NCBI GenBank assembly: GCA_014378915.1
Contig: JACMMS010000126.1
Coordinates: 1 to 50,709, forward strand
Source: Methylophilaceae bacterium
Lineage (GTDB): Bacteria > Pseudomonadota > Gammaproteobacteria > Burkholderiales > Methylophilaceae
Direction of reading: 5' to 3'
DNA length: 50,709 bases
This document shows, in pieces, positions 5,926-23,647 of the stretch. Within the stretch, counting starts at the first letter, position 1. Each line of letters starts with the position of its first letter. The notes under the pieces were generated by a model. That model ran no database searches. It was given only the letters and a program-made list of their open reading frames with translations, and was not told the origin of the DNA. The position numbers and the translations under genes are program-made.

Positions 5926-6831
5926 TCACTTGGTTGTTTTTAATTGCTCAATCAATTCTCTAGCTGCAATTTTAGTGGCTTTTAGACGATTTTTTTTATC
6001 AATAACAGAATCATTGTTATTGAAGTTTAACCAATTACGTAACTCAACAAAAAACAAATAAATAGATGATTTAATCATCGTACTTCGAGCAAGCTGTAGA
6101 GCATCTCTCATATCAAAGTGCTTTTTACAAAACAAAAATATACCGCGCTTTTTTCTAAGCCATTTATCCAGTGAGTTAGCACCAATTTCACTAGCGCCAC
6201 TGACGTGTATTATTTTAACGGCATCAAAATAGCCAATTTGATAACCATGTAGCCGTAACCTTAAGCAAATATCGACATCTTCACCATACAAAAAATAATC
6301 CGGGTCAAAACCTGCAATCTCTTCATAAACACTGCGTTTAATCAGCATGCAAGCACCTAGTATCCATGCAATATCACCAGGTAGATTCTTAAATTTTTCT
6401 GTATACTTTAGACCGCGTGAAGACGGGTAACGGTACCGTGGCAAAACGCGTTTACCTTTTCTTGGCTCATCTATTGCTGGGCCGACCATGCCCATTTCTG
6501 TGTGTTGAATCAAAAAATCAACAAGATGCGCAAAACTAAGTGGCTCACCAATCACAGTATCTGGATTGAGTAAAAGATAATACTCGCTTGTAGCCATGGT
6601 TGCCGCCAAGTTGTTAGCGCAAGCAAAACCAAGATTTTTATCGCTCTGGATGAGCGTAATTTTTTGACCAAACGTCTCATTCAACAAATTAACGCTATTG
6701 TCTTGACTGGCATTATCGACAACAATGACTTGAAGCGTTATGCTCTTTTGCTGAAAGACTGAGTTGATACAATCTAAAGCATACGTGCCGGAGTTGTAAT
6801 TAACAATCAATATGGATAAATTAGGCTGCAT
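5926..6831 (-). CDS. GT2 family glycosyltransferase
   Basis: A GT-A fold glycosyltransferase of about 301 residues. Visible motifs in order: SILIVNYNSGTYALDCINS (N-terminal nucleotide-binding strand), VVDNASQDNS, the DXD region LLLNPDTV, and YGEDVDICLRLRLHG (the ED/R-x-x-W-like acceptor region). These are typical of the rhamnosyl/galactosyl branch of GT2 enzymes acting on O-antigen or core. It is probably cytoplasmic and membrane-associated. The chosen ATG (6831) overlaps the stop of the upstream epimerase as TAATG, indicating coupling; an ATG nine codons further upstream is possible. It is the last gene of the minus-strand operon. Donor and acceptor sugars are unknown. Confidence 0.88.
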   Translation of the reverse strand: MQPNLSILIVNYNSGTYALDCINSVFQQKSITLQVIVVDNASQDNSVNLLNETFGQKITLIQSDKNLGFACANNLAATMATSEYYLLLNPDTVIGEPLSFAHLVDFLIQHTEMGMVGPAIDEPRKGKRVLPRYRYPSSRGLKYTEKFKNLPGDIAWILGACMLIKRSVYEEIAGFDPDYFLYGEDVDICLRLRLHGYQIGYFDAVKIIHVSGASEIGANSLDKWLRKKRGIFLFCKKHFDMRDALQLARSTMIKSSIYLFFVELRNWLNFNNNDSVIDKKNRLKATKIAARELIEQLKTTK

Positions 6832-7814
6832 TAAGATTGATAAAATGCGGTATACCATTTAACAAAAGCTGTTACGCCTTTTATTAAATCTGTACTCGGC
6901 TTAAAACTAACCCAAGCCTCTAATGCAGAAGTATCAGCGAAAGTAGATTTAACATCGCCAGCTTGCATCGGTAAAAATTCTTTCTGTGCTGTTTTACCTA
7001 AAGCATTTTCTAACGTGGTGATGAAATCCATGAGTTTTTCAGGTTGATTATTGCCAATATTGAATATGCGATAAGGCGTACTGCCGGAAATTGGCGTGGC
7101 AACTTTATCGAGTACTCTAATCACACCTTCGACAACATCGTCGATATATGTAAAGTCACGCATCATATCGCCATGGTTAAACACTTTGATAGGTTTACCA
7201 GTCAAAATAGCATTAGCGAATAAAAATGGCGACATATCAGGTCTACCCCATGGTCCGTACACAGTAAAGAACCGTAACCCAGTAGTTGGCAGCGCATACA
7301 AATGGCTGTAAGTGTGCGCTATCAACTCATTGGCTTTTTTAGTCGCAGCATACAAGCTAACTGGGCTATCTACATGATCTTGCTCGCTAAACGGTAATTT
7401 AGTATTACCGCCATATACGCTAGATGAGCTGGCATATACCAAATGCTCTACACCATAATGTCGACAAGCCTCAAGTATATTAGTAAAGCCTACTAAATTA
7501 CTTTGTATATAGGCGTGTGGGTTTTGTAATGAATAGCGCACCCCTGCTTGCGCGGCCAAATGCACAACACGTTGTGGTTTATGAAGTGCAAATAAAGCTA
7601 GCAAACTCGTTGTATCAGCTATATCTTGCTTGATAAAGTGAAATTTTTGAGCATTAGGATGGGCTTTAATCGATGCTAAGCGCGCTTCTTTTAAGCGAAC
7701 ATCGTAATAATCGTTGAGGTTATCAAGCCCAACAATGCTATCGCCACGCGCGAGTAATTTTAAGGCAACGTGATAGCCAATAAAACCTGCAGCGCCAGTT
7801 ACTAAAACCTTCAT
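6831..7814 (-). CDS. UDP-glucuronate 4-epimerase-like NAD-dependent epimerase
   Basis: Extended short-chain dehydrogenase of 327 residues. It has the Rossmann motif GAAGFIGYH (7-15), the sequence [18 protein letters not shown] characteristic of UDP-glucuronate 4-epimerases (LpsL/Cap1J group), the catalytic SSSVYG and YAATKKANE (YxxxK), and [17 protein letters not shown]. It is expected to interconvert UDP-glucuronate and UDP-galacturonate in the cytoplasm. It sits between an ArnT-like transferase and a GT2, so the product may be the sugar they use. A GalE-type or UDP-GlcNAc specificity is less likely given the NLNDYYD signature, but substrate assignment is by family, not proof. Confidence 0.88.
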
Positions 7815-7824
7815 TTTTTATCCA

Positions 7825-9336
7825 TTATTTATTTGAATGTATGCAATCCACATTGAATCTTAAGGCTGTGAGCTTTTTATGTTTTTTTAAATAAGGTTTA
7901 AATTCTTTTAACACACAACCAGACTGTTGATTTACCAAAGCTAGATGTGCATCATCAACTAAAATAGTAAAAGGACTTTTAGTATCCAGCATTTGCTTAA
8001 ACTGCTCAACACTCAACATATTGATTGGGCCGACAGAGTAATACATTACACGCTCATCGAGGTCTTCATAACCATATAAAGTTGACTTTTTTTGTGTAAC
8101 TGACCAATCACGTAGCTGGGGAAAAACCGCTACTCTATATTCAAACATTTTAGTTTCCAGCACAGCATAATAAACAGCGTATCCAGCGGGTAATAGTATC
8201 GCTAATAGCAAAATTAGGCGTCTGACTATCAAACCAGACTGATTAACATCAAATTGATTAAATAGCGCAGCTAATTGCACACCTAAATAAATAGCGATGA
8301 TAGGGTAAATTGGCAAAAGATATTTTGCATGCTTATTACTAAATAATGAAAAGATCGCCAATGGAACAATCACTGCAATTATCAACAAGCGTTCATGGGG
8401 TTTAATTTTAATTAAACGCTGTTTCTGTAAAAGGTTTATTTTGAAATGCTTGATACTTAAAAGTACTAATAATGAGCTAGGCAAAAAATCGACTAGTATC
8501 CAGAATAAATAGCTGAATAAAGGCTTCCCTGAGTCACCACTAATTTTGCCAACGATGTCTTTTTTAGCAATGATTGCCCATATATCTGGCCCTAAACGCC
8601 AAGTCACCGCAGCGTACCAAGATAAACCGACCAGCAGAAAAATTGCCCAGCCAACGGGATCTTTAATGAATTGCAATATACGAGCATCACGTTGGTAAAA
8701 AGCAATGAATAGCATAGGCAGTGTGATCAATAACAGCACTAACGGGCCTTTAGTGAGCATGGCAAGGGCCAGAAAAAAGTAGCTTAAATATATCCAGCCG
8801 CGACCTGCGCCATCTTGTAAGTAACGAATGGCAGAGAACAACGCACCTATGCATAAGGCAGTCAGTAACATTTCAATTTCTGCGCGGCGTGCGAACATGG
8901 CAAAGCTGGTATTAGCTATTAAAATCTGTAGCGCAAACAGCGCTGACCATGCACCAAATCTTTTTAAAGTGAATTGATAGACCATATATGCAGTTGCACT
9001 GGCCGCCAATGCTGATGGTAGGCGCACTACCCACTCGTTAACGGAGCCAAATATGTGTGCAATGCTCACAACGAACCAATAGAGCAAAGGTGGTTTTGTA
9101 ATGTACAACTCACCATTAAGGTGTGGCAGTAACCAATTGCCAGTTTCAAACATCTCCCGTTCTGGCAATGCTCTACGTGCTTCGTTAAATGACATTAAGG
9201 CGATATCACCTAAGCCATAAAAGAAAATTACCAGCGCTGCCAGAATTGTTAAACTTAATAAGCGCTTGTAAGTTTTAGTTTCTGCAGGATTAATAAATTG
9301 ACTAGTTGGGATGGGTTGAAGGTTCATTGCGCTCAT
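7825..9336 (-). CDS. ArnT-like GT39 polyprenyl-phosphate sugar transferase
   Basis: Polytopic inner-membrane glycosyltransferase of about 503 residues (GT39/PMT fold). The first periplasmic loop carries the ArnT-type acidic motif: FNEARRALPEREMFETGNW, then ITKPPLLYW. These enzymes move a sugar from undecaprenyl phosphate to lipid A or core on the periplasmic side. ATG at 9336 or 9327 is plausible; a TTG at 9345 would add three residues. It lies seven or more bases after a LAB_N protein and shortly before the UDP-glucuronate epimerase, so galacturonic acid is a reasonable guess for the sugar. Ara4N is less likely because no arnA or arnB homologue is in the window. Confidence 0.87.
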   Translation of the reverse strand: MSAMNLQPIPTSQFINPAETKTYKRLLSLTILAALVIFFYGLGDIALMSFNEARRALPEREMFETGNWLLPHLNGELYITKPPLLYWFVVSIAHIFGSVNEWVVRLPSALAASATAYMVYQFTLKRFGAWSALFALQILIANTSFAMFARRAEIEMLLTALCIGALFSAIRYLQDGAGRGWIYLSYFFLALAMLTKGPLVLLLITLPMLFIAFYQRDARILQFIKDPVGWAIFLLVGLSWYAAVTWRLGPDIWAIIAKKDIVGKISGDSGKPLFSYLFWILVDFLPSSLLVLLSIKHFKINLLQKQRLIKIKPHERLLIIAVIVPLAIFSLFSNKHAKYLLPIYPIIAIYLGVQLAALFNQFDVNQSGLIVRRLILLLAILLPAGYAVYYAVLETKMFEYRVAVFPQLRDWSVTQKKSTLYGYEDLDERVMYYSVGPINMLSVEQFKQMLDTKSPFTILVDDAHLALVNQQSGCVLKEFKPYLKKHKKLTALRFNVDCIHSNK

Positions 9337-9352
9337 CACTAGCAAACATGAT

Positions 9353-9739
9353 CTATGATAATGTCGAGTCTGTGGAAATTTCAGTATGTGAGGCAGCCAA
9401 TTGCTTTTTTTGTCTGATCAACATTAAATTTCTGGTGTACACAAAGGTGCCTGGCAACTGACCAAGAATAATCACTGGATCTGCACGATGAAATCCGTAG
9501 GCCAGCACAATCAAGCCACCAGATAAGCTTAAATACCAAAAACTAACGGGAATTAAGCTTTGCTGATGCCGCTCACTATGCACCCACTGCACAATAAAAC
9601 GCGTCATAAACAAACATTGACCAATTAAGCCAATACTAAGCCATAAGAAATCTGTAGGCGGCATACTGTTTGCATAATACGAGAAACGCTCAGCTAAATG
9701 ACTTAAAAAGAAGACGGGTTGATGTTCCATAATAACCAT
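9353..9739 (-). CDS. LAB_N (lipid-A-disaccharide synthase N-terminal domain) membrane protein
   Basis: A small membrane protein of 128 residues with about three hydrophobic segments. It matches the LAB_N domain by the pattern FLWLSIGLIGQCLFMTRFIV, QWVHSER, and IPVSFWYLSLSGG, ending in GQLPGTFVYTRNLMLI. The domain name comes from fusion to LpxB in some genomes; stand-alone copies are commonly next to a DPM1-like GT2 and a GT39, exactly as here. Its biochemical role is not established. Two bases separate it from the upstream GT2 gene, and seven from the TTG of the downstream transferase gene, so the three are translated together. A role in lipid-linked sugar handling or flipping is inference. 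Confidence 0.88.
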   Translation of the reverse strand: MVIMEHQPVFFLSHLAERFSYYANSMPPTDFLWLSIGLIGQCLFMTRFIVQWVHSERHQQSLIPVSFWYLSLSGGLIVLAYGFHRADPVIILGQLPGTFVYTRNLMLIRQKKQLAASHTEISTDSTLS

Positions 9740-9741
9740 AA

Positions 9742-10485
9742 TTACTCTTCACTTGCCATAGGCAACTTGGCACGACGTTGCAACCAAGCAACACCAAATA
9801 AATCTACAATACCGACTAACAATCTATCGATAGTGCCGTAGTTCGATTGACCAAATTCGCGATTACGATGGCTAACAGGTACTGAAACAATCTTGCCACC
9901 ACGACGTTTAATTAATGCAGGCAGAAAGCGATGCATATGGTCAAAATAAGGCAAGTCTAAAAATGCAGCACGATTAAATAACTTAAGTCCGCAACCAGTA
10001 TCAGGCGTGTCATCACTCAAAATACGAGAGCGCACACCATTTGCAATCACAGATGAGATGCGTTTAATCCAAGTATCACGGCGACTGGCACGACGATTAC
10101 CGCCAACTAATTCAACACTTTCTGATAAGGCGGCTAGTAGTTTAGGAATATCGGCAGGATCATTTTGACCATCCCCATCTAACGTAGCCACCCAATCATA
10201 TTGAGCAAAATTAACACCTGTGCGCACTGCTGTGCTTTGGCCACAGCTTGCAGCATGCTGTACAACACGTAATTGTGGATATTGCGTCTGTAAGCTTTTT
10301 AATTTGGCGTATGTGCCATCGGAACTGCCATCATCTACATAAATAATCTCGTGTTCTATCTGTGACTTTAACGCAGCGTCAATCTCCGCAATCAATCCAG
10401 CAACATTGTCTTGTTCATTACGCACTGGCACCACAACCGATAACCGATTAGGTTTGATAAAAGTATTAGATGAAAAAGATGTCAT
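9742..10485 (-). CDS. ArnC/DPM1-like polyprenyl-phosphate glycosyltransferase (GT2)
   Basis: GT2 enzyme of 247 residues likely to charge undecaprenyl phosphate with a sugar on the cytoplasmic face. Motifs: LSVVVPVRNEQDNVAGLIAE at the N-terminus, YVDDGSSDGT, the DXD-containing TLDGDGQNDPADI, and DTGCGLKLFNR. It lacks the two C-terminal membrane helices of E. coli ArnC, so it resembles the soluble DPM1 form; the neighbouring LAB_N protein may supply the membrane part (inference). It overlaps nothing but is only two bases from LAB_N. Sugar donor is not readable; the epimerase in the operon suggests a uronic acid. Confidence 0.88.
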   Translation of the reverse strand: MTSFSSNTFIKPNRLSVVVPVRNEQDNVAGLIAEIDAALKSQIEHEIIYVDDGSSDGTYAKLKSLQTQYPQLRVVQHAASCGQSTAVRTGVNFAQYDWVATLDGDGQNDPADIPKLLAALSESVELVGGNRRASRRDTWIKRISSVIANGVRSRILSDDTPDTGCGLKLFNRAAFLDLPYFDHMHRFLPALIKRRGGKIVSVPVSHRNREFGQSNYGTIDRLLVGIVDLFGVAWLQRRAKLPMASEE

Positions 10486-12070: not shown

Positions 12071-13885
12071 TTATAACCAAGTGACCGCACCCTCTTCTGC
12101 CGATAGCACATTTCTGCGCATTCCGCCGAATAGTTCACGTCCTATACCATGCGAATTGCTATGGCGTTTACTGTCTGAAAGCTCTACAACTTCTCGCTCT
12201 GCCCATGTATCTTCATCGACCAACGCATTTAGTGTGCCGACTGTTGCATTTATACGAATAATATCACCATCCCGCACCTTAGCTAAAGCGCCTCCAGCAG
12301 AGGCCTCTGGACTTAAATGAATCGCAGCGGGAATTTTACCTGATGCACCACTCATACGGCCATCGGTCACAAGGGCTACCATAAAGCCTTTATTTTGTAA
12401 TACGGCTAAAGGTGGTGTCAGTTTATGTAACTCTGGCATACCATTCGCTTTAGGACCTTGGAAACGGACAACCGCAACAAAATCACGCTCTAATTCGCCG
12501 CGATCAAATGCAGCTAGCAACTCTTCTTGACCATCGAACACAATAGCGGGGGCTTCAATAATATGGCGATCTTCAGGTACGGCAGAAATCTTAATTACTG
12601 AGCGGCCCAAATTGCCTTTAAGTAAGCGTAAACCACCAGATTCGTTAAATGGCGCAGCCGCTGTACGCACAATTGTTTCATCGCTACTGTCTTTTGGTAG
12701 ATCTTTCCACACCAATTTATTATCTTCTTTAGTAAGCAATTGACCGTACTGACGTAAACCACCATAAGCTATGGTGAACACATCAGGATACATATAGCCT
12801 GCATCAATCAACTCGCGAATGACGAATGCAGGACCACCTGCAGTTTGGAATTGATTGACATCAGCCTTGCCATTTGGGTAAACACTGGCTAATAGTGGTG
12901 TTGAGCGCGCGAGATAATGGAAATCTGTCCAGTCGATAATAATACCTGCAGCACGCGCTATTGCCACCCAGTGAATTAAGTGATTGGTTGAGCCACCCGT
13001 TGCAAGCAATGCCACCATCGCATTGACAATGACATACTCATCTACCAACTTACCAATCGGGGTAAAGTGATTTTTTTGTGTATTTTGCAAGACCATCTTT
13101 ACGGCCTCACGCGTCAACATCTCACGCAAGCCATCATGAGGATGTACGAAAGCCGCGCCTGGCACATGCAAGCCCATGGCCTCGAGCAGCATTTGATTAC
13201 TATTGGCTGTGCCGTAAAAAGTACATGTACCGGCACCGTGATAAGCAGCAGACTCTGAAGCTAATAACTCTTCACGACCCACTAAACCTTGTGCATATTT
13301 CTCACGTACTTTAGATTTTTCAGTATTGTCCAAGCCTGTGCTCATCGGGCCAGCTGGCACAAATACACAGGGTAAGTGACCAAAATGCAACGCACCAATT
13401 AAAAGGCCCGGAACGATTTTATCGCATACGCCTAACAGCAAAGCCGCATCAAATACGTCGTGGGAGAGTGCAACGGCTGTGCTCATAGCAATCACATCAC
13501 GACTAAAAAGGCTTAGCTCCATACCAGGCTCACCCTGCGTCACACCATCACACATAGCTGGCACACCCCCCGCCACTTGCATGGTGGCGCCAAGTTTTTT
13601 TGCCTCATCTCGAATAATGTCTGGATAGTTCACATAAGGTTGGTGTGCTGAAAGCATCTCGTTATATGCAGTTACTACGCCAATATTAGACGCTTTCTCC
13701 GCGATCACACGCAACTTATCATTGCTTGGCATCGCCGCAAAGGCATGTGCCACATTAGCGCAACCAAGACGATCTGCACCACGTTGACGATTAATAATTG
13801 AATCTACACGCTGTAAGTACGCCGTTCGAGTTGGGCGACTACGTTCGCGAATACGTTCAGTAACTTCTATGTGGGATTGTTTCAT
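12071..13885 (-). CDS. edd: 6-phosphogluconate dehydratase
   Basis: Dehydrates 6-phosphogluconate to KDPG using an iron-sulfur cluster (IlvD/Edd family), feeding eda. The 604-residue length matches E. coli Edd (603). Visible signatures: [51 protein letters not shown] and, near the C-terminus, [23 protein letters not shown]. The last group distinguishes Edd/IlvD enzymes, and the overall order matches Edd rather than dihydroxyacid dehydratase. The pair edd-eda is oriented opposite to hldD-waaF and is flanked on both sides by LPS glycosylation genes. No zwf or pgl is in the window. Confidence 0.95.
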
Positions 13886-13983
13886 GATAAATACACCATT
13901 TTTAAAATTATATTTGCAGCTAAGTAACCTATAATTACCATTGTACAGTTGACTTACTGCATTAAAAATCTAAACTTCTTATT

Positions 13984-14877
13984 TTATAATATTGCCACAA
14001 ACTTCTGAGAGTTTATAAGAATTTCTTTTTTAAGAATATCAATATCTGCATCCGTGTAAGTTAATTTAGCTTGAATATCATTCTTGCCACTGGCATTTTC
14101 CCACTTTAAACCAGTTTTTTGACTAAGTGGAATCGCTCTAAAGTTGAGATCCTCAATATATATTTGCTGAATTTTAAAGCCATTTCTAATGGCATTGACG
14201 TGTAGCCAAATATCATCGCCTTTTGGACATTTATCTACAAAAGCATCACCTTGTCCAGCGAGAATTTTTTGCAATTTTGGTGGGTAAATAACACCAGAAC
14301 AGCCTGTTGCATGATTTAAATAACTTGGAATTGTAGAACGACACATAGCCCATGTATAAAAATCGCCAATACTATTCATATTATCTTTAAGAGTAACTAC
14401 TTGTGCACGATAACAAGATACCACTGTGGCATTTTGCTCATAAGCTTTTAACAAACCTTTGAGCCAAAACTTGGGATAAAAAATATCATCATCAGCTGTT
14501 ACTAAAGGAAATTGCGCATCAAAATATTCACATACGTAGGGATAGTATTTTTTATGTGGTCCGTAGTCTTTCGTGTGCTTAATCTCCAACCCTCTTTTTT
14601 GCAATCGCCTAAGACTAGCAGGCAAATTCTGTAGAATATTTTCATCATCTAGCCATAGAATAAGTCTAGAAGGCTTTACATCTCCACGGCCAATTGACTC
14701 AATGGTATAAAAAACGCTATGAATTCTTTTACCAAAAGACGTTAAACAAACTACCACTTGAGAACTGCCTAATAGAGTTTTACTGGATAAAAGACTACTG
14801 AGCTGCAGTAGGGTGAGATATTTAAGTTTTTCAAATCCTTTAACAATATTTTGCCAAAATGATATAGCGAGTTTCAT
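13984..14877 (-). CDS. Putative DXD glycosyltransferase, paralogue A
   Basis: A 297-residue protein that I cannot assign to a named enzyme. It has an N-terminal strand VVVCLTSFGKR, then YTIESIGRGDVKPSRLILWLDDE, KDYGPHKKYYPY, and LVTADDDIFYP (Asp129-131), which looks like the metal-binding DXD of a GT-A glycosyltransferase. A second conserved acidic motif is CPKGDDIWLHVNAIRNG. It is clearly paralogous to the gene immediately upstream; the two share all these blocks in the same order. It is the last gene of the waaG-to-here run and probably acts on LPS core in the cytoplasm. The DXD reading is seen; activity and sugar are inference. Confidence 0.75.
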   Translation of the reverse strand: MKLAISFWQNIVKGFEKLKYLTLLQLSSLLSSKTLLGSSQVVVCLTSFGKRIHSVFYTIESIGRGDVKPSRLILWLDDENILQNLPASLRRLQKRGLEIKHTKDYGPHKKYYPYVCEYFDAQFPLVTADDDIFYPKFWLKGLLKAYEQNATVVSCYRAQVVTLKDNMNSIGDFYTWAMCRSTIPSYLNHATGCSGVIYPPKLQKILAGQGDAFVDKCPKGDDIWLHVNAIRNGFKIQQIYIEDLNFRAIPLSQKTGLKWENASGKNDIQAKLTYTDADIDILKKEILINSQKFVAIL

Positions 14878-14921
14878 CTTATTCCAATAGGGTTTGTATG
14901 CGTCATTTTCAATCTGGTTGT

Positions 14922-15779
14922 TTAGTGAGGTGCATCTTGTTTTAAGGTGTTGATATCTGATCTGTTGTAAGTCATCTTAGCTTGCTTATCGTTAAGCCCT
15001 AAAAAAATATTTGCGTTAAACAAACCATTTTTTTGAGTAAAAGGTAACGTTAAAAAATGATAAGCTTCGGGTTCAATTTGTTTCACTTGATAGCCATTTC
15101 GCAAGGCGATAGCGTGTAACCAAATATCATCGGCATTAGGGCAGCATGCTAAGAATACATCACCCGATGCTTTTATTTTATTGAGGAAATCTGGCGGATA
15201 AATAACACCTGAGACACCTGTTGCTTGATTAAAATAACTAGCATCAGTTGAACTGCAAATTTGCCAAAATTTAAATGACTCCACCTCTTGCTGCTCTTTA
15301 TCTAGCAAAACGACGTGTGCACGGTAACAATTTACTACTGATGGTGTTTTCACATAAGACTCATAAAGATTTTTAAGCCAAAAAATAGGATAAAAAATAT
15401 CATCATCAGCAGTGACTAAAGGTAAAACATGCTCACTTAGATTATTGACATACGGAAAATATTTAGTATGTGGACCATAGTTTTCAGCCAGAAAAATCTC
15501 CAAACCTCTACTCTTAAGTCTTTTTAACTCCGCAGGCAAATGATTAAACTGATGTTCATTATCAAGCCACAAAATAATTCTAGAGGGTAAAACTTTTCCA
15601 TTTGCAATGCTCTCAATCGCATAAAAAACTTTGCTGGTTCTTTCGCCGTATGAAGTCAAAGAAACAACCACCGGGGCATTAGAGACAATTGCAGCGTTCG
15701 AAAAACGGTTTTTTAAGCGGTATTTGATAATCAAATTGATTTTAATGAGCCAATTTAAAATTCTAGAGTTTGTCATCAT
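14922..15779 (-). CDS. Putative DXD glycosyltransferase, paralogue B
   Basis: A 285-residue paralogue of the following gene. The shared blocks are VVVSLTSYGER, YAIESIANGKVLPSRIILWLDNE, ENYGPHTKYFPY, LVTADDDIFYP (Asp125-127) and CPNADDIWLHAIALRNG. Differences in the C-terminal third suggest the two copies have different acceptors. It begins 24 bases after the carbamoyltransferase stop, and 44 bases separate it from paralogue A, consistent with one transcript. Tandem duplication followed by divergence is the simplest reading. No hydrophobic signal is evident beyond a mildly hydrophobic N-terminus. Family by motif only. Confidence 0.75.
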   Translation of the reverse strand: MMTNSRILNWLIKINLIIKYRLKNRFSNAAIVSNAPVVVSLTSYGERTSKVFYAIESIANGKVLPSRIILWLDNEHQFNHLPAELKRLKSRGLEIFLAENYGPHTKYFPYVNNLSEHVLPLVTADDDIFYPIFWLKNLYESYVKTPSVVNCYRAHVVLLDKEQQEVESFKFWQICSSTDASYFNQATGVSGVIYPPDFLNKIKASGDVFLACCPNADDIWLHAIALRNGYQVKQIEPEAYHFLTLPFTQKNGLFNANIFLGLNDKQAKMTYNRSDINTLKQDAPH

Positions 15780-15803
15780 TGCTATGCGATTCCTATTAAA
15801 ACA

Positions 15804-17519
15804 TTACTTAATAACTAATACATCTTCCATCAATAAGTATTCTAAATCACAACCGTAAAACATGTTAAGGGCGTCGGTCGGACTACAAATCATAGGCTCG
15901 CCACGACGGTTCAATGAAGTATTGAGCACTACTGGCACTCCGCGCAAACGCTCCAATTCTTCAATTAGAGCGTAATAACGTGGATTAGTAGCTTTAGTAA
16001 CGACCTGTGCACGTGCTGTGCCATCTTCATGTACGACTTCTGGAATACGTGTTTTCCATTTTTCAGCGACATCAAAAGTAAAAGTCATATACGGTGATGG
16101 GTGGTTCGTTTGTAAAATATCTTCAGCTGCTGTATCCAACATACTAGGGCAGAATGGACGCCAGCGCTCACGGTACTTAATCTGCGCGTTAATGCGGTCT
16201 GCCACACCTGAATGGCTAGGGTCACCCAAAATACTACGGCAGCCTAGTGAACGTGGACCAAATTCCATACGCCCTTGAAACCATGCTAACGGGTTACCAT
16301 CAGCCAGCAACTGTGCTCCTTTTTGCGGCGCATGTTCAATACGTGTAAATTTTGGTTTGCCGGGATGCGCCTCGCACGCTGCTATACACTCTTCTGTATT
16401 GAACGAAGGGCCAAGGTAAGCATGTTGCATAGGCTTAACAATATCGCCCATCTCTGCGGCAACGTAAGTCGCTGCACCTAACGCCGTGCCGGCATCGCCA
16501 GAAGCGGGTTGCACAAACAGCTCTTTAACACCAGGCATAGCTATAATGCGCTGATTCAATTTAACATTTAATGCTACCCCCCCCGCCATCGCAATTCGGC
16601 CTGTTTCACGGATGATATCGCCTACATAATAATCAATCATTTTCAGCGCAATGTCTTCCAACAAAGCTTGCACTGATGCTGCGTAGTGAATATAAGGATC
16701 ATCAATTTCATCACCAATACGCTTAGGGCCCAGCCACTCTATTAGCTTAGGCGAAAAATAATGCCCACGGCCATTTTCTTTAAAACGCCTTGTACCAACG
16801 ACATTTACGTAATCAGTATTGATTTTAAGTTCACCGTTTTCAAAGCTCACCAAACGCGATAAGTCGTACTTGCTGGCATCACCATACGGCGCCATTCCCA
16901 TGACTTTGAATTCACCATCCAGCATCTCAAAACCAAGATACTCAGTAATAGCTCCATACATGCCGCCTAAAGAATCTGGATCATAAAACTCTTTAATTTT
17001 ATGGATTTTGCCGTTTTCACCATAACCGAAAAACGTGGTGGCATATTCACCTTTACCATCAATACCGACAATCGCAGTTTTCTCTTTAAATCCACTGAGA
17101 TGATAGGCGCTGCTAGCATGAGTCAAGTGATGTTCAACAGGAAAAAACTTAGCGTTATTTAAGCCTAGCCCTTTCATTAACGCGAGCGCTTTCTCCCGGT
17201 TGCGCCTAAAGCGACGATTACCATTAAACAAAGCATCTAAAGCGCGATCAGGTGCATACCAATGGCGTTTAGCATAATGCCAGCGAGCAGCAGAAGTCAG
17301 GGGTATTTCACCATAAGGGAACGCGACCATATCAACTTGATCTGGCGAAATACCAGCTTCTTTTAAGCAGTATTTGGCGGCTTCTAGCGGCATGATATTT
17401 TTAGCATGTTTGTCACGTATAAAACGCTCTTCTTCAGCCGCAGCAATAATCTTGCCATCAATCACAATAGCAGCAGAAGAGTCATGCCCTAGTGCGCCAG
17501 ATAAACCCAAAATAATCAT
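15804..17519 (-). CDS. O-carbamoyltransferase (NodU/CmcH/TobZ family)
   Basis: Two-domain carbamoyltransferase of 571 residues. The N-terminal Kae1-like domain, which makes carbamoyl-adenylate transfer possible, opens with ILGLSGALGHDSSAA and carries the metal-binding histidines in VEHHLTHASSAYH (His130, 131, 134) and AMAGGVALN (311-318). The C-terminal YrdC-like part shows MEFGPRSLGCRSIL and VVLNTSLNRRGEP. The start overlaps the upstream kinase stop by ATGA. In Pseudomonas aeruginosa a family member in the waa cluster is known to carbamoylate core heptose (WapO, from memory), and the shared neighbourhood (waaG, waaP, kinase) makes the same role likely here. A G8 tract interrupts the conserved GGVALN codons. 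Confidence 0.9.
   Translation of the reverse strand: MIILGLSGALGHDSSAAIVIDGKIIAAAEEERFIRDKHAKNIMPLEAAKYCLKEAGISPDQVDMVAFPYGEIPLTSAARWHYAKRHWYAPDRALDALFNGNRRFRRNREKALALMKGLGLNNAKFFPVEHHLTHASSAYHLSGFKEKTAIVGIDGKGEYATTFFGYGENGKIHKIKEFYDPDSLGGMYGAITEYLGFEMLDGEFKVMGMAPYGDASKYDLSRLVSFENGELKINTDYVNVVGTRRFKENGRGHYFSPKLIEWLGPKRIGDEIDDPYIHYAASVQALLEDIALKMIDYYVGDIIRETGRIAMAGGVALNVKLNQRIIAMPGVKELFVQPASGDAGTALGAATYVAAEMGDIVKPMQHAYLGPSFNTEECIAACEAHPGKPKFTRIEHAPQKGAQLLADGNPLAWFQGRMEFGPRSLGCRSILGDPSHSGVADRINAQIKYRERWRPFCPSMLDTAAEDILQTNHPSPYMTFTFDVAEKWKTRIPEVVHEDGTARAQVVTKATNPRYYALIEELERLRGVPVVLNTSLNRRGEPMICSPTDALNMFYGCDLEYLLMEDVLVIK
16577..16584 (-). repeat. G8 homopolymer inside the carbamoyltransferase gene
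   Basis: Eight C residues on the plus strand are eight G residues on the coding strand, encoding the end of Ala312, Gly313-Gly314 and the start of Val315. The gene is in frame as read. Such a run is rare in this AT-rich sequence and is the typical substrate for slipped-strand phase variation. Confidence 0.6.
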
Positions 17520-19012
17520 TTAAAACCCTTAATCATGCTGCTCATCCATTGATTTTCTATAGGTGCTTTGCCTAAATACTGAGCCTGTAAACTTTGAACT
17601 ATCAAATTTCTAACCTCTGCATCTGACTGCCAATTACGTATCAACCTGCATAGATCTCGTATGTGGCGCTTATTGAACAAACGCGAACCTGTATGCTGGC
17701 GCAGACTATCCAAATCGATTAACCAAGGTGTAGCATCTACCATTTTGATGTTGGTTGCCTTAAAATCGCCATGCTCAATTTTGAATAGGTACAATTTAAA
17801 CATCATGCTTGCAATGTTTTGCGCAGCTTTTGTTTTTTGGTCTGTAGATATTTTACCATCTGCGAAGAACTCCAGCGCATCCGGCGCCTTGATAAACTCC
17901 GTAATAAAATAGGCCTCCTTGCGAATAAACCCCCAACGCCGCTCCAGCAAAGCTACGGGGGCTGCTGTAGCAATGCGTAATAATTGCAAACGATGTGCAT
18001 TTGCCCAAGACTTAGCGGCACGCGTAACACGAAAAGCACGCCCAAATCCGTGCCAAATACTTTTAATATTGTAGCGTTTAACGACTATCTTCTGACTATC
18101 TACTTCGGTCAGGCTCACAGTGCAAGTATTACCGCTTTTTAAACGCTGTAGTTCATTGTCACCCAACAATGAATCTGGGTGATTAAGTGTCTCTCGTAGC
18201 TGATGAGTGAAACAAGGCCGAGAAATGGCTAAAAACAGGCGATTTGTTTGCTCAGCCACCACATCTGTGCAAGTTCTGAACACTTTCTCATCGGCGTATT
18301 TTTTTAGTACATAGTTTCGCTCAGCATCTACCAAGTGTGTAACTGTTTTTAATCTTAGCACTTTCTGCCAACCACGCTCTTCTTCATAAATGCGACTAAG
18401 CTCTGCTAGCCAGCGCCTAGCATCTAATACATCGAACTTGGAAATTAGCGTGGCAAAATTAACTAGCGATTGAGATTTAGCACGAATAGATGAAAGCGGA
18501 CGAATCGCATCCCCATCCAAGGTATAAATCTCCCCGTTTTTAATAAGGAAATTTTTGAGGTACAAATCAGTTTGAATTAAACCTGCTTCATGGTGCTTAG
18601 CCACTTCACGCACTAACAATGTAGCTAAATTTAATTTCGCCACATCATCTAAGTTATCATCAAATATCGCCTGCTCAGCACTCAAACTGTCTTCAATGGC
18701 AGCAAAAATCAGCACCTCTGCCGCGTTTTCAACACTAGTTCCCGAATATAACAAGGCCGGCGTTAAGATATTTGCTTTTATCAATGATTGAACACCACGC
18801 AAATCTCGCGCAGCATAATGTTTGGCTTTCTCTCCCAGAAACAGCTTGGCGTAAACAGGCTGGCCATGCCAATAACCGCGGCAAACAATACGCCGATTAG
18901 GTACACGCCTGACGATTTCCAAGGCATGTAGCGAAACACCCGATTGCAAATCAACTGTAAACTCATCCTGCCCAGACTTACTTAGCTGGTATAAGTCAGG
19001 AGTCATCTTCAT
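17516..19012 (-). CDS. Protein with two LPS-kinase-like domains
   Basis: A 498-residue protein with two kinase-like units. Unit 1 (about 1-250) has a candidate ATP lysine at Lys56 and a catalytic loop GLIQTDLYLKNF with Asp149 and Asn154, followed by LDGD (Asp166/168). Unit 2 (about 265-498) has Lys312, HGDFKATN (Asp416, Asn421) and LIDLDSL (Asp433/435). The motifs resemble WaaP/Kdo kinase-type small-molecule kinases, and both units keep the key residues, so both may be active. The start overlaps the GT39 stop (ATGA) and its own stop overlaps the carbamoyltransferase start (ATGA). It probably phosphorylates core heptose or acts with WaaP. Tandem architecture is seen, function is inference. Confidence 0.8.
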   Translation of the reverse strand: MKMTPDLYQLSKSGQDEFTVDLQSGVSLHALEIVRRVPNRRIVCRGYWHGQPVYAKLFLGEKAKHYAARDLRGVQSLIKANILTPALLYSGTSVENAAEVLIFAAIEDSLSAEQAIFDDNLDDVAKLNLATLLVREVAKHHEAGLIQTDLYLKNFLIKNGEIYTLDGDAIRPLSSIRAKSQSLVNFATLISKFDVLDARRWLAELSRIYEEERGWQKVLRLKTVTHLVDAERNYVLKKYADEKVFRTCTDVVAEQTNRLFLAISRPCFTHQLRETLNHPDSLLGDNELQRLKSGNTCTVSLTEVDSQKIVVKRYNIKSIWHGFGRAFRVTRAAKSWANAHRLQLLRIATAAPVALLERRWGFIRKEAYFITEFIKAPDALEFFADGKISTDQKTKAAQNIASMMFKLYLFKIEHGDFKATNIKMVDATPWLIDLDSLRQHTGSRLFNKRHIRDLCRLIRNWQSDAEVRNLIVQSLQAQYLGKAPIENQWMSSMIKGFK

Positions 19013-20589
19013 CGACTAACTTTCCACAAGGTCCATTTGCCTTCTGTATGCACTTCCGCCAATTGAACATTCGGCAACTCTGGCTTTTCTTTGCTTATCA
19101 ACCATAATTGTGGCTCGACTTTTAGAAACTCGACCAATTGCTTTTCATCTACCACTTTTATAGGTCGGGATGCGTAAAAAGAAACCGCGCCATCCCCTGG
19201 TTTAGCTTGATAAAGTGCAGAATAACCAGTGGCTGTTTGCATTAACGTTTTGACATTTGACTTATTGGCTTCTTTAGTCAGATATTGCTCGGCAAATAAG
19301 TAGCCTGTTGTTGCAAGTACCGCAGCCAATAAGGTAGGCGTTGATAGCGCGCTCAGCTTAAATAATTTCTTAGCCAGCAATGGAATGGTTAACATCAAAA
19401 TCCAGTAAATAGGATTAAAATCAACTAAGACATGTCTAAGCTCAGCCAAAAACAAACCGGCAATAACAGCTGCACACAGTAGCCAAAATATCACACGATT
19501 AAATTGATAAAACTTAGCGTTAGCTGTGGTTTTAATTTGAGTTTGTTGCAAATAATAGCCAATCATCATGGCGATTGGTGGTTCAAAAAGCAAAGCGTAT
19601 TGCATTTGCTTATTCACTGTAAACGTCAATAAAACAAAAACTACTGCTAACCAAATCACAGAAAAATGAATGATTTTAGGTAATGGGCGATGTTTGTAAC
19701 ACCAGATACCTGTTGGAATGAGCAATAAACTCCAAGGTGCAAAAAAATCAATCGCATGCTGCAGGTACCAATAAACAGGCTGTTGATGTGTGCCACTCAC
19801 AAAGGTTTCATCAACTTGCTTACCAAAAAAATGGGCGGCTATATCTGGCATTGTGGTTAGAATCCAGACGTACCAAGCAAAGGCAATCATGATAAAAATA
19901 ATGATACCTAGCGGGTTCATTAAAAGCTTTAATGTTGCCAAACACTGCCCGGCACCATATTGCAAATAAGCGAATATCAGTACCGACAGCAAAGGAATAG
20001 CAATAGCGGCAGGGCCTTTGGTAAGAAAGCCCAAGCCTAGTGCTGCCATCAACAATAATGCATACCTCTTGTTTGCTACAGCGCTGTTAGTTACATTGCT
20101 GCTAGCTTTACCAATGGCAGTGATTGACTGCACCAAATAATAACCAGCATAACAAGCCATAGTGATAAAAAATAAGAGCGTACTATCAGCCTCGCCGCTT
20201 CTGAAATAACGCAGACTGATAAAACTTGTCGTTAACACCAAGACAATACTGGACGCAATGTTGGTATCGGTTTCTTGCTTAGCCCAAATAAAAACTAGCA
20301 TCGCCAACAAAACTGCAAATATTGCTGAAGGAAAACGTACCGCACCTTCATTCACACCAAACACTTTATAACTGACGGCCGTGAGCCAATAAGGTAGCGG
20401 TGGTTTTTGTAGGCGTAATTCGCCGTTATAATGTGGAATGACCCAATCACCCAGAACCGCCATTTCACGAGCAGTCTCGGCGACTCTAGATTCTTGAATC
20501 TTATCTACTGCTCGCCCAGTATTACCAAATAATAAACCCGTTAACACCACACTTAACATCACTATCCAAATTTTAAAAAAATTACTCAA
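19009..20589 (-). CDS. ArnT-like GT39 glycosyltransferase, second minus-strand copy
   Basis: Polytopic inner-membrane protein of 526 residues with about twelve hydrophobic stretches and a soluble C-terminal part. The N-terminal loop motif is ESRVAETAREMAVLGDWVIP, then NGELRLQKPPLPYWLTAVSY, the hallmark of ArnT-type enzymes that transfer a sugar from a polyprenyl phosphate in the periplasm. It is distinct in sequence from the GT39 at 7825-9336. It is locked into the operon by four-base overlaps with waaP upstream and the tandem-kinase gene downstream. Acceptor is likely a core residue exposed in the periplasm, but this is inferred from context. Confidence 0.87.
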   Translation of the reverse strand: MSNFFKIWIVMLSVVLTGLLFGNTGRAVDKIQESRVAETAREMAVLGDWVIPHYNGELRLQKPPLPYWLTAVSYKVFGVNEGAVRFPSAIFAVLLAMLVFIWAKQETDTNIASSIVLVLTTSFISLRYFRSGEADSTLLFFITMACYAGYYLVQSITAIGKASSNVTNSAVANKRYALLLMAALGLGFLTKGPAAIAIPLLSVLIFAYLQYGAGQCLATLKLLMNPLGIIIFIMIAFAWYVWILTTMPDIAAHFFGKQVDETFVSGTHQQPVYWYLQHAIDFFAPWSLLLIPTGIWCYKHRPLPKIIHFSVIWLAVVFVLLTFTVNKQMQYALLFEPPIAMMIGYYLQQTQIKTTANAKFYQFNRVIFWLLCAAVIAGLFLAELRHVLVDFNPIYWILMLTIPLLAKKLFKLSALSTPTLLAAVLATTGYLFAEQYLTKEANKSNVKTLMQTATGYSALYQAKPGDGAVSFYASRPIKVVDEKQLVEFLKVEPQLWLISKEKPELPNVQLAEVHTEGKWTLWKVSR

Positions 20590-21410
20590 CTCAAATCCCT
20601 TACCGCATATTTTCTTTGAAATTTTTTATACAACTCATCAGCACGCAAACTGACTTTATGCCAAAAACCACGTTCATTACTTAACGTTTTAAGTAAAGAC
20701 TGTTGTCTATATACAGATAAAAAGCGTAGGTAATCACGCTTAGTTAAACCAATATCCATCGCTGAAAAATAAAGCCCTGCAATATCTTTCATTCTCGCGC
20801 TGACTGAAACTCTCTGCGCAATGCCAACGCGGTGCAAATCAATTAAGTAGAGTTTAATTTCATCATGCTTTAAAGCAACATTATCTAAGCAAAAGTGACA
20901 GATGTAAAAGTCGCGATGATTCATACCGCCGTCATGCAGTTTTTGGGCGATTTTAGCTACGGCAACAATCAGCCTACGCTTAAAGCGCGCTGGTGGTGGC
21001 TTGTTTTTCCAATTGGCACATAAGGTTTCCAACGAAGTAATATCACCCAAATCTTGCGTTATCACAAAAGATTGTTTTGTTGCGGGGTTACATCCCTTTT
21101 CGCCAAAAGCAATCAAAGGCGTTGTAGGAATACCAATTTGATTGAGTTTCTCAATCGCTAACTTTTCTGTTTTAGCCCCAATAATAGGCAGTTTTAGAGT
21201 GAGAAAATTCTTAAAAATCTCCCTCCAGCCCACACCAAAATGCTGTTTAACAAAATAGGATTGCCCACCCAGTTTAAAATTAAGCGTTAACCGTCCCGGC
21301 ATATCGCGGAACACCTCTCCACGCAAGCCCATAATATGGGCGAAGGTATCACCGGCTGGCAATTGCTCGCGCAGAGTCTGTGGGATTATTTCGCTATTTT
21401 TTTTAAACAT
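20586..21410 (-). CDS. waaP: LPS core heptose(I) kinase
   Basis: Kinase that phosphorylates heptose I of the LPS inner core at O-4, important for outer-membrane integrity. At 274 residues it matches E. coli WaaP (265). Features: FRDMPGRLTLNF near the N-terminus, ATP-binding Lys55 in YFVKQHFGVGWREI, the hinge region FVITQDLGD, and the catalytic loop MNHRDFYICHFCLD with Asp167, followed by LIDLHR. It is 23 bases downstream of waaG and overlaps the next gene by four bases. The order waaG-waaP is the standard one. Identification is secure. Confidence 0.94.
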   Translation of the reverse strand: MFKKNSEIIPQTLREQLPAGDTFAHIMGLRGEVFRDMPGRLTLNFKLGGQSYFVKQHFGVGWREIFKNFLTLKLPIIGAKTEKLAIEKLNQIGIPTTPLIAFGEKGCNPATKQSFVITQDLGDITSLETLCANWKNKPPPARFKRRLIVAVAKIAQKLHDGGMNHRDFYICHFCLDNVALKHDEIKLYLIDLHRVGIAQRVSVSARMKDIAGLYFSAMDIGLTKRDYLRFLSVYRQQSLLKTLSNERGFWHKVSLRADELYKKFQRKYAVRDLS

Positions 21411-21433
21411 TAAGCCTTTTTAAACATGGTTTT

Positions 21434-22612
21434 TCAAAAGAAGCTGTCATTTTTCATTTTATCTAGCGCAAAAAATTCAATCAAATCAGCCTCATATGAT
21501 TGTGAAGTAGTTGCAGCAATATGTGATGTGTACTGCTTAGCATGTGCAACCCACTCAGCATGTTTTTTATTTAAACTTAGCACATCAAGCAAAGCCGCAT
21601 TTAAGGCTAACTGATTGAAAGGCGTTTCAAGCACATAACCAGCATCAGCGGCCTGCACATGAAAAGCATAACCACAATTGTCAGTAACTATCACTGGCAA
21701 TCCGGCAGTTAATGCCTCTATTAATACGATGCCTGCTAATTCTGAACGTGCGGCATGCACCAAACAATCGGCTGCCGACATCAAATCTGGCACATCAGCA
21801 CGGCCTGAGGTAATGATGATTTTTGTAGCGACATTCAAACGCTGGGCTAGCGCCTGCATTTTTACTGAATCTGTATCTTCGCCAACGGCTAATAGCCAAG
21901 TATTTTTTTGCACTGCTGGCGGCAAACTGGCAAGTGCTTCAATAGCACGATCTAAGCCTTTACGTACAAAAGCTGAGCCAACCATTAATGCAACTTTTGC
22001 ATCAGCAGGCAAGGCAAATTCCTCACGTAACTTGAGTCTAGCTGTATCGCGATTAATTTCTGCAAATCGCGCACTAGGGATGCTAGGCCGCAGCAAATAG
22101 AAACGACTATCTGGCGTTTTATACCAACGCTGAAAAACCGCCTTTTCACTAGGTGCTAGCAATAATATTTTGCAATATCCGCTCGCATCCATTACCTCCT
22201 TTTCGCACATAGCAAAAAATCGATAGCGCCCTGTAAGCCTGTACCATAAGCTACGTTCCAACTGCGCTCTTTCCATAAAACACGGATCGGCAGCGTAATA
22301 CACGTCGAGCCCAGCGCCACTTTTGAACGCTAATTTATTAAAACCAACCACAATATCAGGCTGATCTATTTTCAGCCGCTCTTCAAAAGCGTTAATCAAA
22401 GACTGATGCTTTTGATGGTTCAAAAATCCTTTATACGGCAACAAAACTACATTCAAATGCCCTTTATCTGAGCTAGGCTTTTCACCGCGCCATTGCCCGG
22501 TGTAAATAGTCACACTGTGACCTTTTGTAGCGCAATCCTGAGCAATGCGCAACATATCTCGTTGCACGCCACCAAAAGGAAAGTACTTAAAAATAAGAAA
22601 AGCTAAATTCAA
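21434..22612 (-). CDS. waaG: LPS core glycosyltransferase WaaG-like (GT4)
   Basis: GT4 (GT-B fold) enzyme of 392 residues that adds the first outer-core hexose, usually glucose, to heptose II. The N-terminal acceptor region FKYFPFGGVQRDMLRIAQ and VVGFNKL..LDVYYAADPCF are typical of WaaG, and the C-terminal donor motif EALTAGLPVIVTDNCGY contains the GT4 glutamate pair region HAARSELAGIVLIEAL. A hexosamine donor is possible. It starts 54 bases from the divergent waaC start, so the two heptose-core genes share a short promoter region. It heads the seven-gene minus-strand operon. Confidence 0.92.
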   Translation of the reverse strand: MNLAFLIFKYFPFGGVQRDMLRIAQDCATKGHSVTIYTGQWRGEKPSSDKGHLNVVLLPYKGFLNHQKHQSLINAFEERLKIDQPDIVVGFNKLAFKSGAGLDVYYAADPCFMERAQLERSLWYRLTGRYRFFAMCEKEVMDASGYCKILLLAPSEKAVFQRWYKTPDSRFYLLRPSIPSARFAEINRDTARLKLREEFALPADAKVALMVGSAFVRKGLDRAIEALASLPPAVQKNTWLLAVGEDTDSVKMQALAQRLNVATKIIITSGRADVPDLMSAADCLVHAARSELAGIVLIEALTAGLPVIVTDNCGYAFHVQAADAGYVLETPFNQLALNAALLDVLSLNKKHAEWVAHAKQYTSHIAATTSQSYEADLIEFFALDKMKNDSFF

Positions 22613-22666
22613 AATTTAATAGTGGCACAATTCTGCAAAGCATTAATTGTATGCGAAAATATTAGT

Positions 22667-23647
22667 ATGTTACGTATTCTATTAGTAAAAACCTCATCCA
22701 TGGGTGATGTCATTCATAACATGGCAGTGGTCTCAGATATACACGCACACTTCCCAGACGCCCTCATTGACTGGGTAGTTGAAACTAGTTTTAACGAAAT
22801 TATTAAACTCAATCCAAACATAAACACCATTATTCCTGTCGCCGTGCGCCGTTGGAAACGCGCTATATTCAACTGTCAAACTTGGCGTGAAATTGCTACA
22901 TTTAAACGCCAAATTAATGTGCAAAAATATGATGCTATTTTAGATACGCAAGCATTATTAAAAAGCGCGATTATTTCGCGCTTAGCCAATGGCATCACGC
23001 ACGGACCCAATACCAAAACAGCACGCGAGCCACTTGCTGGGTTTTTGTATCATCGCGGCTATGATATTCCACCTAAAATCCATGCGCTCACCCGTTACCG
23101 CATGTTAGCGGCTCAAGCGCTAGGCTATACATTACCAAGCACACCACCGGTATATAACTTACAGGTTGATGGCATTCATTCAACTGGTGTCATCCAAGCA
23201 AAAATTCCACAAAACTATGTAATGGCATTGCACAGCACCGCACGTGATGCCAAGCTATGGCCTGTAGGACATTGGGTTGCATTAGGCCATTACTTAGCGA
23301 GCAAAGGTTTAAGCATTTTGTTGCCTTGGGGTAGCGAAGCTGAGTTAGCACGCTCAAATTTAATCGCTGCGCCACTCAGTAACGCGGTGGTATTACCGAA
23401 AATGAATTTAACACAATTAGCGGTACTGATCACTAAAGCACAAGCTGCCATAGGTGTAGATACAGGGCTGATGCACATAGCTGTTGCCTTTAAAATACCC
23501 ACGCTCGCCATTTTTTGTGATACTTATATATGGCAAGCTGGCGCCATGCCCAGTAATGGCGCAATAGCAATAACGATTGGTGGCAAGCGAGCATGTCCCT
23601 CTGTCAACGAAGCCATACAGGCATTTAGTCAAATAATACCCACATGA
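22667..23647 (+). CDS. waaC: ADP-heptose:LPS heptosyltransferase I
   Basis: GT9 enzyme adding heptose I to Kdo2-lipid A. The ATG at 22667 begins the family N-terminus MLRILLVKTSSMGDVIHNM; a GTG at 22622 would add 15 atypical residues with no domain. It contains WVVETSFNEI, the LHSTARDAKLWP donor region and GVDTGLMHIAVAF near the C-terminus. The 326 residues match WaaC (~319-330). SMGDVIH is the signature that separates WaaC from WaaF. The gene faces away from waaG and is followed, 113 bases on, by the heat-shock promoter of grpE. Confidence 0.94.
   Translation: MLRILLVKTSSMGDVIHNMAVVSDIHAHFPDALIDWVVETSFNEIIKLNPNINTIIPVAVRRWKRAIFNCQTWREIATFKRQINVQKYDAILDTQALLKSAIISRLANGITHGPNTKTAREPLAGFLYHRGYDIPPKIHALTRYRMLAAQALGYTLPSTPPVYNLQVDGIHSTGVIQAKIPQNYVMALHSTARDAKLWPVGHWVALGHYLASKGLSILLPWGSEAELARSNLIAAPLSNAVVLPKMNLTQLAVLITKAQAAIGVDTGLMHIAVAFKIPTLAIFCDTYIWQAGAMPSNGAIAITIGGKRACPSVNEAIQAFSQIIPT

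Follow-up and report, generated by a model that had tools for sequence, protein, structure and literature searches.

A probable Pseudomonas-type inner-core operon in a Methylophilaceae bacterium and the pairing of its tandem kinase with a carbamoyltransferase

Does carbamoylation of the lipopolysaccharide (LPS) core depend on the tandem kinase whose gene lies beside that of the carbamoyltransferase? The question is raised by a run of five genes on contig JACMMS010000126.1 of a Methylophilaceae bacterium (assembly GCA_014378915.1), of which we analysed positions 1 to 50,709 (hereafter the window). A sequence-only reading of this DNA had described five co-directional genes with three successive four-base overlaps, and that description was borne out: all five lie on the minus strand, 23 bases separate waaG from waaP, and the junctions waaP/transferase, transferase/kinase and kinase/carbamoyltransferase overlap by TTGA, ATGA and ATGA. 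With moderate confidence, we read the run as a Pseudomonas-type inner-core decoration operon in Methylophilaceae, working by the mechanism proposed below. Listed from waaG onwards, the genes are:

21434-22612, minus strand: waaG-like glycosyltransferase of family 4 (GT4; Glycos_transf_1), predicted to add the first core hexose or hexosamine; near-full-length match to the solved WaaG 8b5s (283 bits, residues 2-378 of 392), assigned as WaaG, with glucose or galactosamine as the putative donor sugar
20586-21410, minus strand: waaP, heptose I (HepI) kinase; Kdo/WaaP domain; passes the NCBIfam RfaP equivalog cut-off (367.7 vs 170 bits); 229 bits to the solved WaaP 6dfl
19009-20589, minus strand: ArnT-like PMT_2 membrane transferase, slot-type subfamily; TTG start, PMT_2 domain, altered ArnT motifs
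17516-19012, minus strand: tandem kinase with two domains resembling protein kinases, placed where PA5006 is in Pseudomonas; Kdo/WaaP match of 52.3 bits on the C half
15804-17519, minus strand: WapO-clade O-carbamoyltransferase; Carbam_trans_N and Carbam_trans_C (PF16861 and PF02543)

Pairing of the tandem kinase with the carbamoyltransferase

Both Pfam domains and the active-site motifs predict that the fifth gene encodes an O-carbamoyltransferase of the TobZ/WapO kind: in an alignment with TobZ (302 bits), the HHxxHA, GPRxLGxRS and LNTS motifs line up. The enzyme has these domains and motifs in common with TobZ and NodU but belongs to a separate clade, and it falls short of the NodU cut-off (167.7 vs 1000 bits). 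Members of this WapO clade score above 600 bits even as fragments, and the best other carbamoyltransferases of our samples reach ~345 bits. Clade and neighbourhood point to a putative WapO, the heptose II (HepII) 7-O-carbamoyltransferase; WapO is termed putative in Pseudomonas too in the available part of PMC8005017.

We searched for both genes in 150 genomes of the family Methylophilaceae, a phylum sample of 299, a class sample of 274 and 119 genomes of family f12 (that of G023), which we took as Pseudomonadaceae from its gene order. Within Methylophilaceae, where fragments were counted (for example G320, G439 and G445), the kinase profile matched 90/150 genomes at E <= 0.001; we counted the 86 strong matches and left out four (G377, G406, G421 and G435; E 1.2e-4 to 6.9e-4) that come without a WapO-clade gene. 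Carbamoyltransferases matched in 91/150 genomes, and here we counted the 86 with a WapO-clade gene, leaving out five with other carbamoyltransferases only (G329, G351, G395, G401 and G429). The strong kinase and the WapO-clade gene occur in the same 86 genomes, on one contig and one strand, with a median of 57 bases (maximum 419) between the matched stretches. The WapO-clade gene is present in 13 of the 299 phylum-sample genomes, every one of which has the kinase too; G193 and G050 show a weaker kinase match without it. Counting any profile match, the class sample yields 17 genomes with the WapO-clade gene, 36 with the kinase and 16 with both. Fourteen of those 36 kinase matches cover the C half only, many in frames of 227-322 amino acids, and are probably single-domain kinases; among the 21 full-length matches, 15 come with a WapO-clade gene and six without (Fisher p 4e-18, a value that ignores phylogeny). 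Family f12 has both genes in 112 genomes, the kinase only in three, the carbamoyltransferase only in one and neither in three. Across all samples, with no genome counted twice, a kinase match is present in 212/214 genomes with a WapO-clade gene. Kinase and carbamoyltransferase are a fixed unit of the cluster. Since the kinase is nearly universal in genomes with the WapO-clade gene and kinases alone exist, we propose that carbamoylation needs either the kinase itself or what it makes.

Several observations weigh against this proposal. The six class-sample genomes with a full-length kinase and no WapO-clade gene (G457, G481, G515, G533, G590 and G619) are joined by 3/115 kinase-bearing f12 genomes (G726, G733 and G739). 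Two genomes have a WapO-clade gene with no kinase detected: G486, where 509 bases separate the gene from the end of its contig (L211), and G752, whose assembly is 77% complete. In the class sample, G486 and G555 are the genomes whose WapO-clade gene comes without a full-length kinase match, G555 having a match to the N half. The pairing statistics ignore phylogeny throughout, and the counts cover kinase and carbamoyltransferase only; waaP may be just as constant. From the full-length kinases without a WapO-clade gene, it follows that the kinase does something useful without carbamoylation.

Plain co-inheritance, with kinase and carbamoyltransferase forming an old core block and no biochemical dependence between them, would fit the conservation of gene order over most of Methylophilaceae and most of f12. 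We consider it unlikely because pairs survive separation: the two genes are kept 0.7-2.5 Mb apart in G717, G731 and G741 and 25 kb apart in G770, on different contigs in G708, G719, G728, G729 and G575, and on opposite strands in G449, G598 and G459. Loss is also one-sided, the kinase standing alone in 6/21 full-length class genomes and the carbamoyltransferase in 2/214, these two being the incomplete assembly and the contig end.

We followed the same association on a tree of kinases from named loci. Loci were the best 80 of 532 confirmed relatives, of which 72 were used (8 left out); with the window, this gave 73 kinases, and alignment A2 comprises the window and 63 of those 72. The state of the neighbouring carbamoyltransferase changes 8 times on this tree, a count that falls to 6 without the 4/22 'no carbamoyltransferase' rows that have <0.7 kb of downstream DNA, and to 5 when 5 kb downstream is required. 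Kinase loci without a neighbouring carbamoyltransferase, together with class genomes without the gene, led us to demote strictly obligate pairing, in the style of Bud32 and Kae1, to a rival explanation.

What the kinase might contribute can be approached through its structure. We call it PA5006-type for its two kinase domains and its place before wapO in the waa cluster, orthology being drawn from gene order and not from a PAO1 alignment. No solved relative emerged from a phmmer sequence search up to E 0.1, and the N half gives a weak match to archaeal Bud32 (38.6 bits, cut-off 125). We modelled the protein with AlphaFold2 from the 64 sequences of A2 (mean predicted local distance difference test score (pLDDT) 94.8, predicted template modelling score (pTM) 0.92). 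Compared with solved structures, the modelled N half matches Rio1 (Z 15.8) and APH(3') (Z 15.0); the modelled C half matches PRPK (Bud32; Z 18.5) and WaaP (6dfl; Z 17.9), which tie, and also Kae1-Bud32 fusions (Z 16). K56, D149, N154 and D166 in the N half and K312, D416, N421 and D433 in the C half are invariant in 64/64 sequences, so neither half looks like a pseudokinase; with lysine, catalytic aspartate, asparagine and metal-binding aspartate present in each, both are predicted to be active. The lowest full-length kinase score in f12, 344.9 bits vs 447-576, belongs to G733, a genome of 50 contigs that is estimated as 100% complete and lacks the WapO-clade gene; this is a single case.

The fold matches bear on a different role, in which the tandem kinase, instead of or besides being a sugar kinase, would associate with the carbamoyltransferase in the way that Bud32 associates with the related Kae1, binding and activating the enzyme or shielding its unstable intermediate. 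Its appeal lies in the below-cut-off N-half match to archaeal Bud32, the C-half matches to PRPK, which is the human Bud32 orthologue, and to the Kae1-Bud32 fusions, and the conservation of the pair even when unlinked; carbamoyltransferase and Kae1 have a common ASKHA fold. We nonetheless judge such a partnership quite improbable. WaaP ties with PRPK, so the Bud32 likeness is not specific, and full-length kinases occur without any WapO-clade gene in the class sample. Moreover, we noticed no fusion of the two proteins, the longest f12 carbamoyltransferase frames (805 amino acids in G743, 1100 in G754) having the kinase in another frame, judged by its coordinates. PA5006 is described as a probable LPS kinase with two-hybrid partners PA2576 and PA3694 in the available part of PMC8707732; the literature, as far as its texts were accessible, yielded no functional link between PA5006 and carbamoylation, and PMC9866376, which names both loci, lies outside that coverage.

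A variable slot downstream of waaP

The membrane transferase had been pictured as inserted into a fixed gene order. This was not borne out, since the gap between waaP and the kinase is a variable slot, holding different genes within Methylophilaceae and wapP and wapQ in Pseudomonas. In 21/31 family loci, waaC diverges from waaG, which is followed by waaP, slot, kinase and carbamoyltransferase; in the remaining ten, the stretch ends early (L063 and L080), waaG or waaP went undetected (L068, L069 and L079), or waaG/waaP do not lie beside the pair (L071-L075). The slot is empty in L066-L069. Elsewhere it contains Kdo/WaaP-family kinases (L051, L053, L059, L060 and L064; InaA is the best NCBIfam match, below cut-off, in the three scanned), a family 2 glycosyltransferase (GT2; L053 and L059), a 2-oxoglutarate-Fe(II) oxygenase (L059 and L075) or an ArnT-like enzyme (L061, L062, L063 and L070). 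L055 (genus g163) has the phosphoethanolamine transferase CptA (916.7 bits, cut-off 404), which occupies the same place as the window's transferase but is an unrelated enzyme; the slot open reading frame (ORF) of L056 is similar to it in length, the one property compared. The window's own arrangement recurs in two Tepidiphilus genomes (L138 and L155) and one Rhodocyclales genome (L137). The slot is thus a place where lineages exchange a core decoration. A Methylophilaceae-like waa cluster on a contig filed under 'Candidatus Nitrosopumilus salaria' (L144) is probably contamination of that record.

The window's slot transferase has a single solved relative at E <= 0.001, CmArnT (E 3.6e-19), and the match is near full length. 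It reads Q32-E33 and L60-Q61-K62 where ArnT has D-E and F-E-K. We compared 15 distinct slot-type sequences, counting each once where loci overlapped. Opposite the D of the D-E motif of CmArnT they have Q (13) or R (2), opposite the E of FEKP they have Q in 15/15, and the Tyr of RYA is replaced by V or I. These enzymes accordingly share with ArnT the Lys of the KPP motif, kept in 15/15, but differ at the D of D-E, the E of F-E-K and the RYA Tyr; among the other listed ArnT-like proteins, the first D-E position is D, N or T where it aligned. ArnT requires the Tyr of RYA, carries its functional residues on the periplasmic side and acts on lipid A, according to the portion of PMC5377068 at hand. 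The altered motifs argue for a distinct ArnT-like subfamily, for which 4-amino-4-deoxy-L-arabinose (Ara4N) should not be assumed as the sugar. Identity as ArnT, the Ara4N transferase, was rejected on score (116.3 bits vs a cut-off of 567) and on the altered D-E, RYA and FEKP motifs. Motifs and cut-off also led us to replace the label GT39 with ArnT-like PMT_2.

A candidate donor module lies elsewhere in the window:

9742-10485, minus strand: GT2 resembling polyprenyl-phosphate-sugar synthases (ArnC/DPM type), candidate donor maker; NF007986 109.8 bits, below the cut-off of 529
9353-9739, minus strand: LAB_N small protein; PF07578 112 bits
7825-9345, minus strand: second ArnT-like transferase (NE-type)
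6831-7814, minus strand: GalE-like NAD epimerase

The module (5926-10485) also holds a further GT2. Slot-type genes occur in 10/150 family genomes (G000, G300, G301, G315, G321, G334, G335, G365, G368 and G436). LAB_N exceeds its cut-off in all ten, compared with 42/150 overall (p 1.3e-6, ignoring phylogeny), and in 7/10 its distance from the slot-type gene is no more than 10 kb. In L204 (G368), the slot-type gene is directly beside a GT2-LAB_N-epimerase trio, and in L062 (G300) the trio sits between the carbamoyltransferase gene and edd. The presence of this trio beside a slot-type gene, within the cluster and at 6831-10485 of the window points to the donor, which may be a polyprenyl-phosphate sugar derived from a UDP-sugar supplied by the GalE-like epimerase. 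There are exceptions on the other side: in G315 and G321, LAB_N neighbours some other PMT_2 gene on a separate contig, and donor module and slot gene are on different contigs in G365, so the link between transferase and module is not universal. The slot-type transferase of L204 (7439-9024) is split into two frames.

Might the slot transferase modify lipid A or another glycan, its presence in the operon being an accident? The action of ArnT on lipid A (PMC5377068, in the part seen) lends this some weight, as does the position of the slot-type gene away from the kinase in 2/10 family genomes (G321 and G368), and it is position that places the transferase on the core rather than on lipid A, a further point against our reading. 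We find such an accident rather unlikely all the same, as the gene directly precedes the tandem kinase in the other 8/10, as well as in Tepidiphilus and Rhodocyclales, and the slot elsewhere holds core enzymes.

Likeness to the Pseudomonas cluster and surrounding genes

In the part of PMC8005017 available, the Pseudomonas order is waaF-waaC-waaG(wapG)-waaP-wapP-wapQ-PA5006-wapO (PA5012-PA5005). Eight f12 loci (L083-L090) have this same order, with a second heptosyltransferase, waaC, waaG, waaP, slot ORFs (WaaP-like in 7/8), kinase and carbamoyltransferase; 0.75-5.4 kb of other DNA lies between the last two in L086-L088. The window shares the order waaC, waaG, waaP, slot, PA5006-type kinase and WapO-clade carbamoyltransferase, and its carbamoyltransferase is 68-74% identical to f12 members (59% in one case). 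The likeness to the waa cluster of Pseudomonas aeruginosa, claimed from the sequence alone, is upheld by this identity and by the common kinase-wapO order. The window differs in its divergent waaC, in a waaF ~19 kb away, in the ArnT-like enzyme of the slot and in gtA, gtB and edd downstream. It has no wapP or wapQ between waaP and the kinase; the genome, a 90% complete draft, gives only three Kdo/WaaP matches, one of them borderline and located elsewhere. Since relatives have the same gene order, that order is not due to chance. The overlaps themselves vary (the kinase-carbamoyltransferase ORF gap runs from -17 to +228 in 31 family loci) and adjacency is kept.

Further genes around the five are:

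22622-23647, plus strand: waaC, heptosyltransferase I, divergent from waaG; TIGR02193 328.9 bits, match from residue 18
2689-3723, plus strand: waaF, heptosyltransferase II; TIGR02195 427.2 bits, cut-off 134.6
14922-15779, minus strand: gtA, probable glycosyltransferase, starting 24 bases after the carbamoyltransferase gene
13984-14877, minus strand: gtB, 49% identical to gtA and its tandem paralogue; low G+C

The true start of waaC is probably the ATG at 22667. Given the strand of gtA and gtB and the 24-base spacing, the run probably continues past 15804, and the end of the operon probably lies beyond that position. Consensus promoter matches were no more frequent than in shuffled sequence and terminator matches slightly more so, and we relied on neither. 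G+C content is 0.35 in gtA and 0.34 in gtB vs 0.40-0.47 in eight other genes measured. For gtA, Pfam gave nothing up to E 5 and no solved structure matched significantly, and for gtB Pfam yielded one GT2 match, at E 0.15 only; neither has a Pfam or NCBIfam family at default threshold. The two have the stretch TADDDIFYP in common. L085, from a presumed Pseudomonadaceae genome, has a homologue (45%) in its core cluster (1945-2976), and L137 has weaker ones. The Entner-Doudoroff dehydratase gene edd lies 3' of gtA and gtB (12071-15804 region) and follows the carbamoyltransferase gene in 26/31 family loci, as a conserved neighbour. In 2689-4357, waaF is followed by a hexapeptide-repeat acyltransferase resembling CatB/Vat-type O-acetyltransferases; it scores below their cut-offs and may serve a further modification of an envelope sugar.

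Proposed order of decoration

Gene identities and order, intact motifs, co-occurrence, the variable slot and the association of slot transferase with donor module are observations; from these we infer the substrates, the positions on the sugars, the order of steps and the identity of the sugar. In the cytoplasm, WaaG would add the first hexose or hexosamine and WaaP would phosphorylate HepI. The PA5006-type kinase, with its two active sites, would place one or more further phosphates onto the heptoses, and the WapO-clade enzyme would transfer carbamoyl onto HepII, using or presupposing the product of the tandem kinase; in this proposal, that need explains the near absence of carbamoyltransferases without a kinase. 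After export by MsbA, the ArnT-like enzyme would attach a sugar to the core, perhaps at one of its phosphates. The donor would be a polyprenyl-phosphate sugar, and the GT2/LAB_N/epimerase module (6.8-10.5 kb) is its probable source. In favour of the scheme, other slot contents, CptA and the Kdo/WaaP-family kinases, add or modify phosphates.

Kinases and carbamoyltransferases of these families are cytoplasmic, and the functional residues of ArnT are periplasmic, so phosphate and carbamoyl would come early and the sugar late. The earlier idea of ordered decorations holds to the extent that topology predicts an order; gene order does not. That phosphate, carbamoyl and sugar share one heptose found no support: Pseudomonas phosphorylates both heptoses and carries the carbamoyl on HepII, as stated in the accessible part of PMC8005017.

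Core phosphates are reported to be essential in P. aeruginosa (PMC8005017, same part). PA5005 was mutated in 2/19 colistin-evolved mutants, and a transposon insertion in PA5005 alone came without a rise in minimum inhibitory concentration, in the section of PMC10569645 available. The pathway is mostly ordinary. A methylotroph carries a core operon of the Pseudomonas type, in which the slot is swappable and the ArnT-like enzyme belongs to a subfamily of its own. It is possible, and we offer it only tentatively, that across proteobacteria the uncharacterised PA5006-type kinase is a prerequisite for core carbamoylation, WapO needing its heptose phosphoform or a complex like that of Bud32 and Kae1, and that slot-type ArnT relatives, in which Q/R and Q replace the acidic motif residues, are a separate subfamily of polyprenyl-phosphate-sugar transferases acting on the core. 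What is new, and can be tested, is a dependence that runs largely one way, the carbamoyltransferase depending on the tandem kinase. Because the carbamoyltransferase implies the kinase, the function of PA5006 becomes testable in a methylotroph or in Pseudomonas putida.

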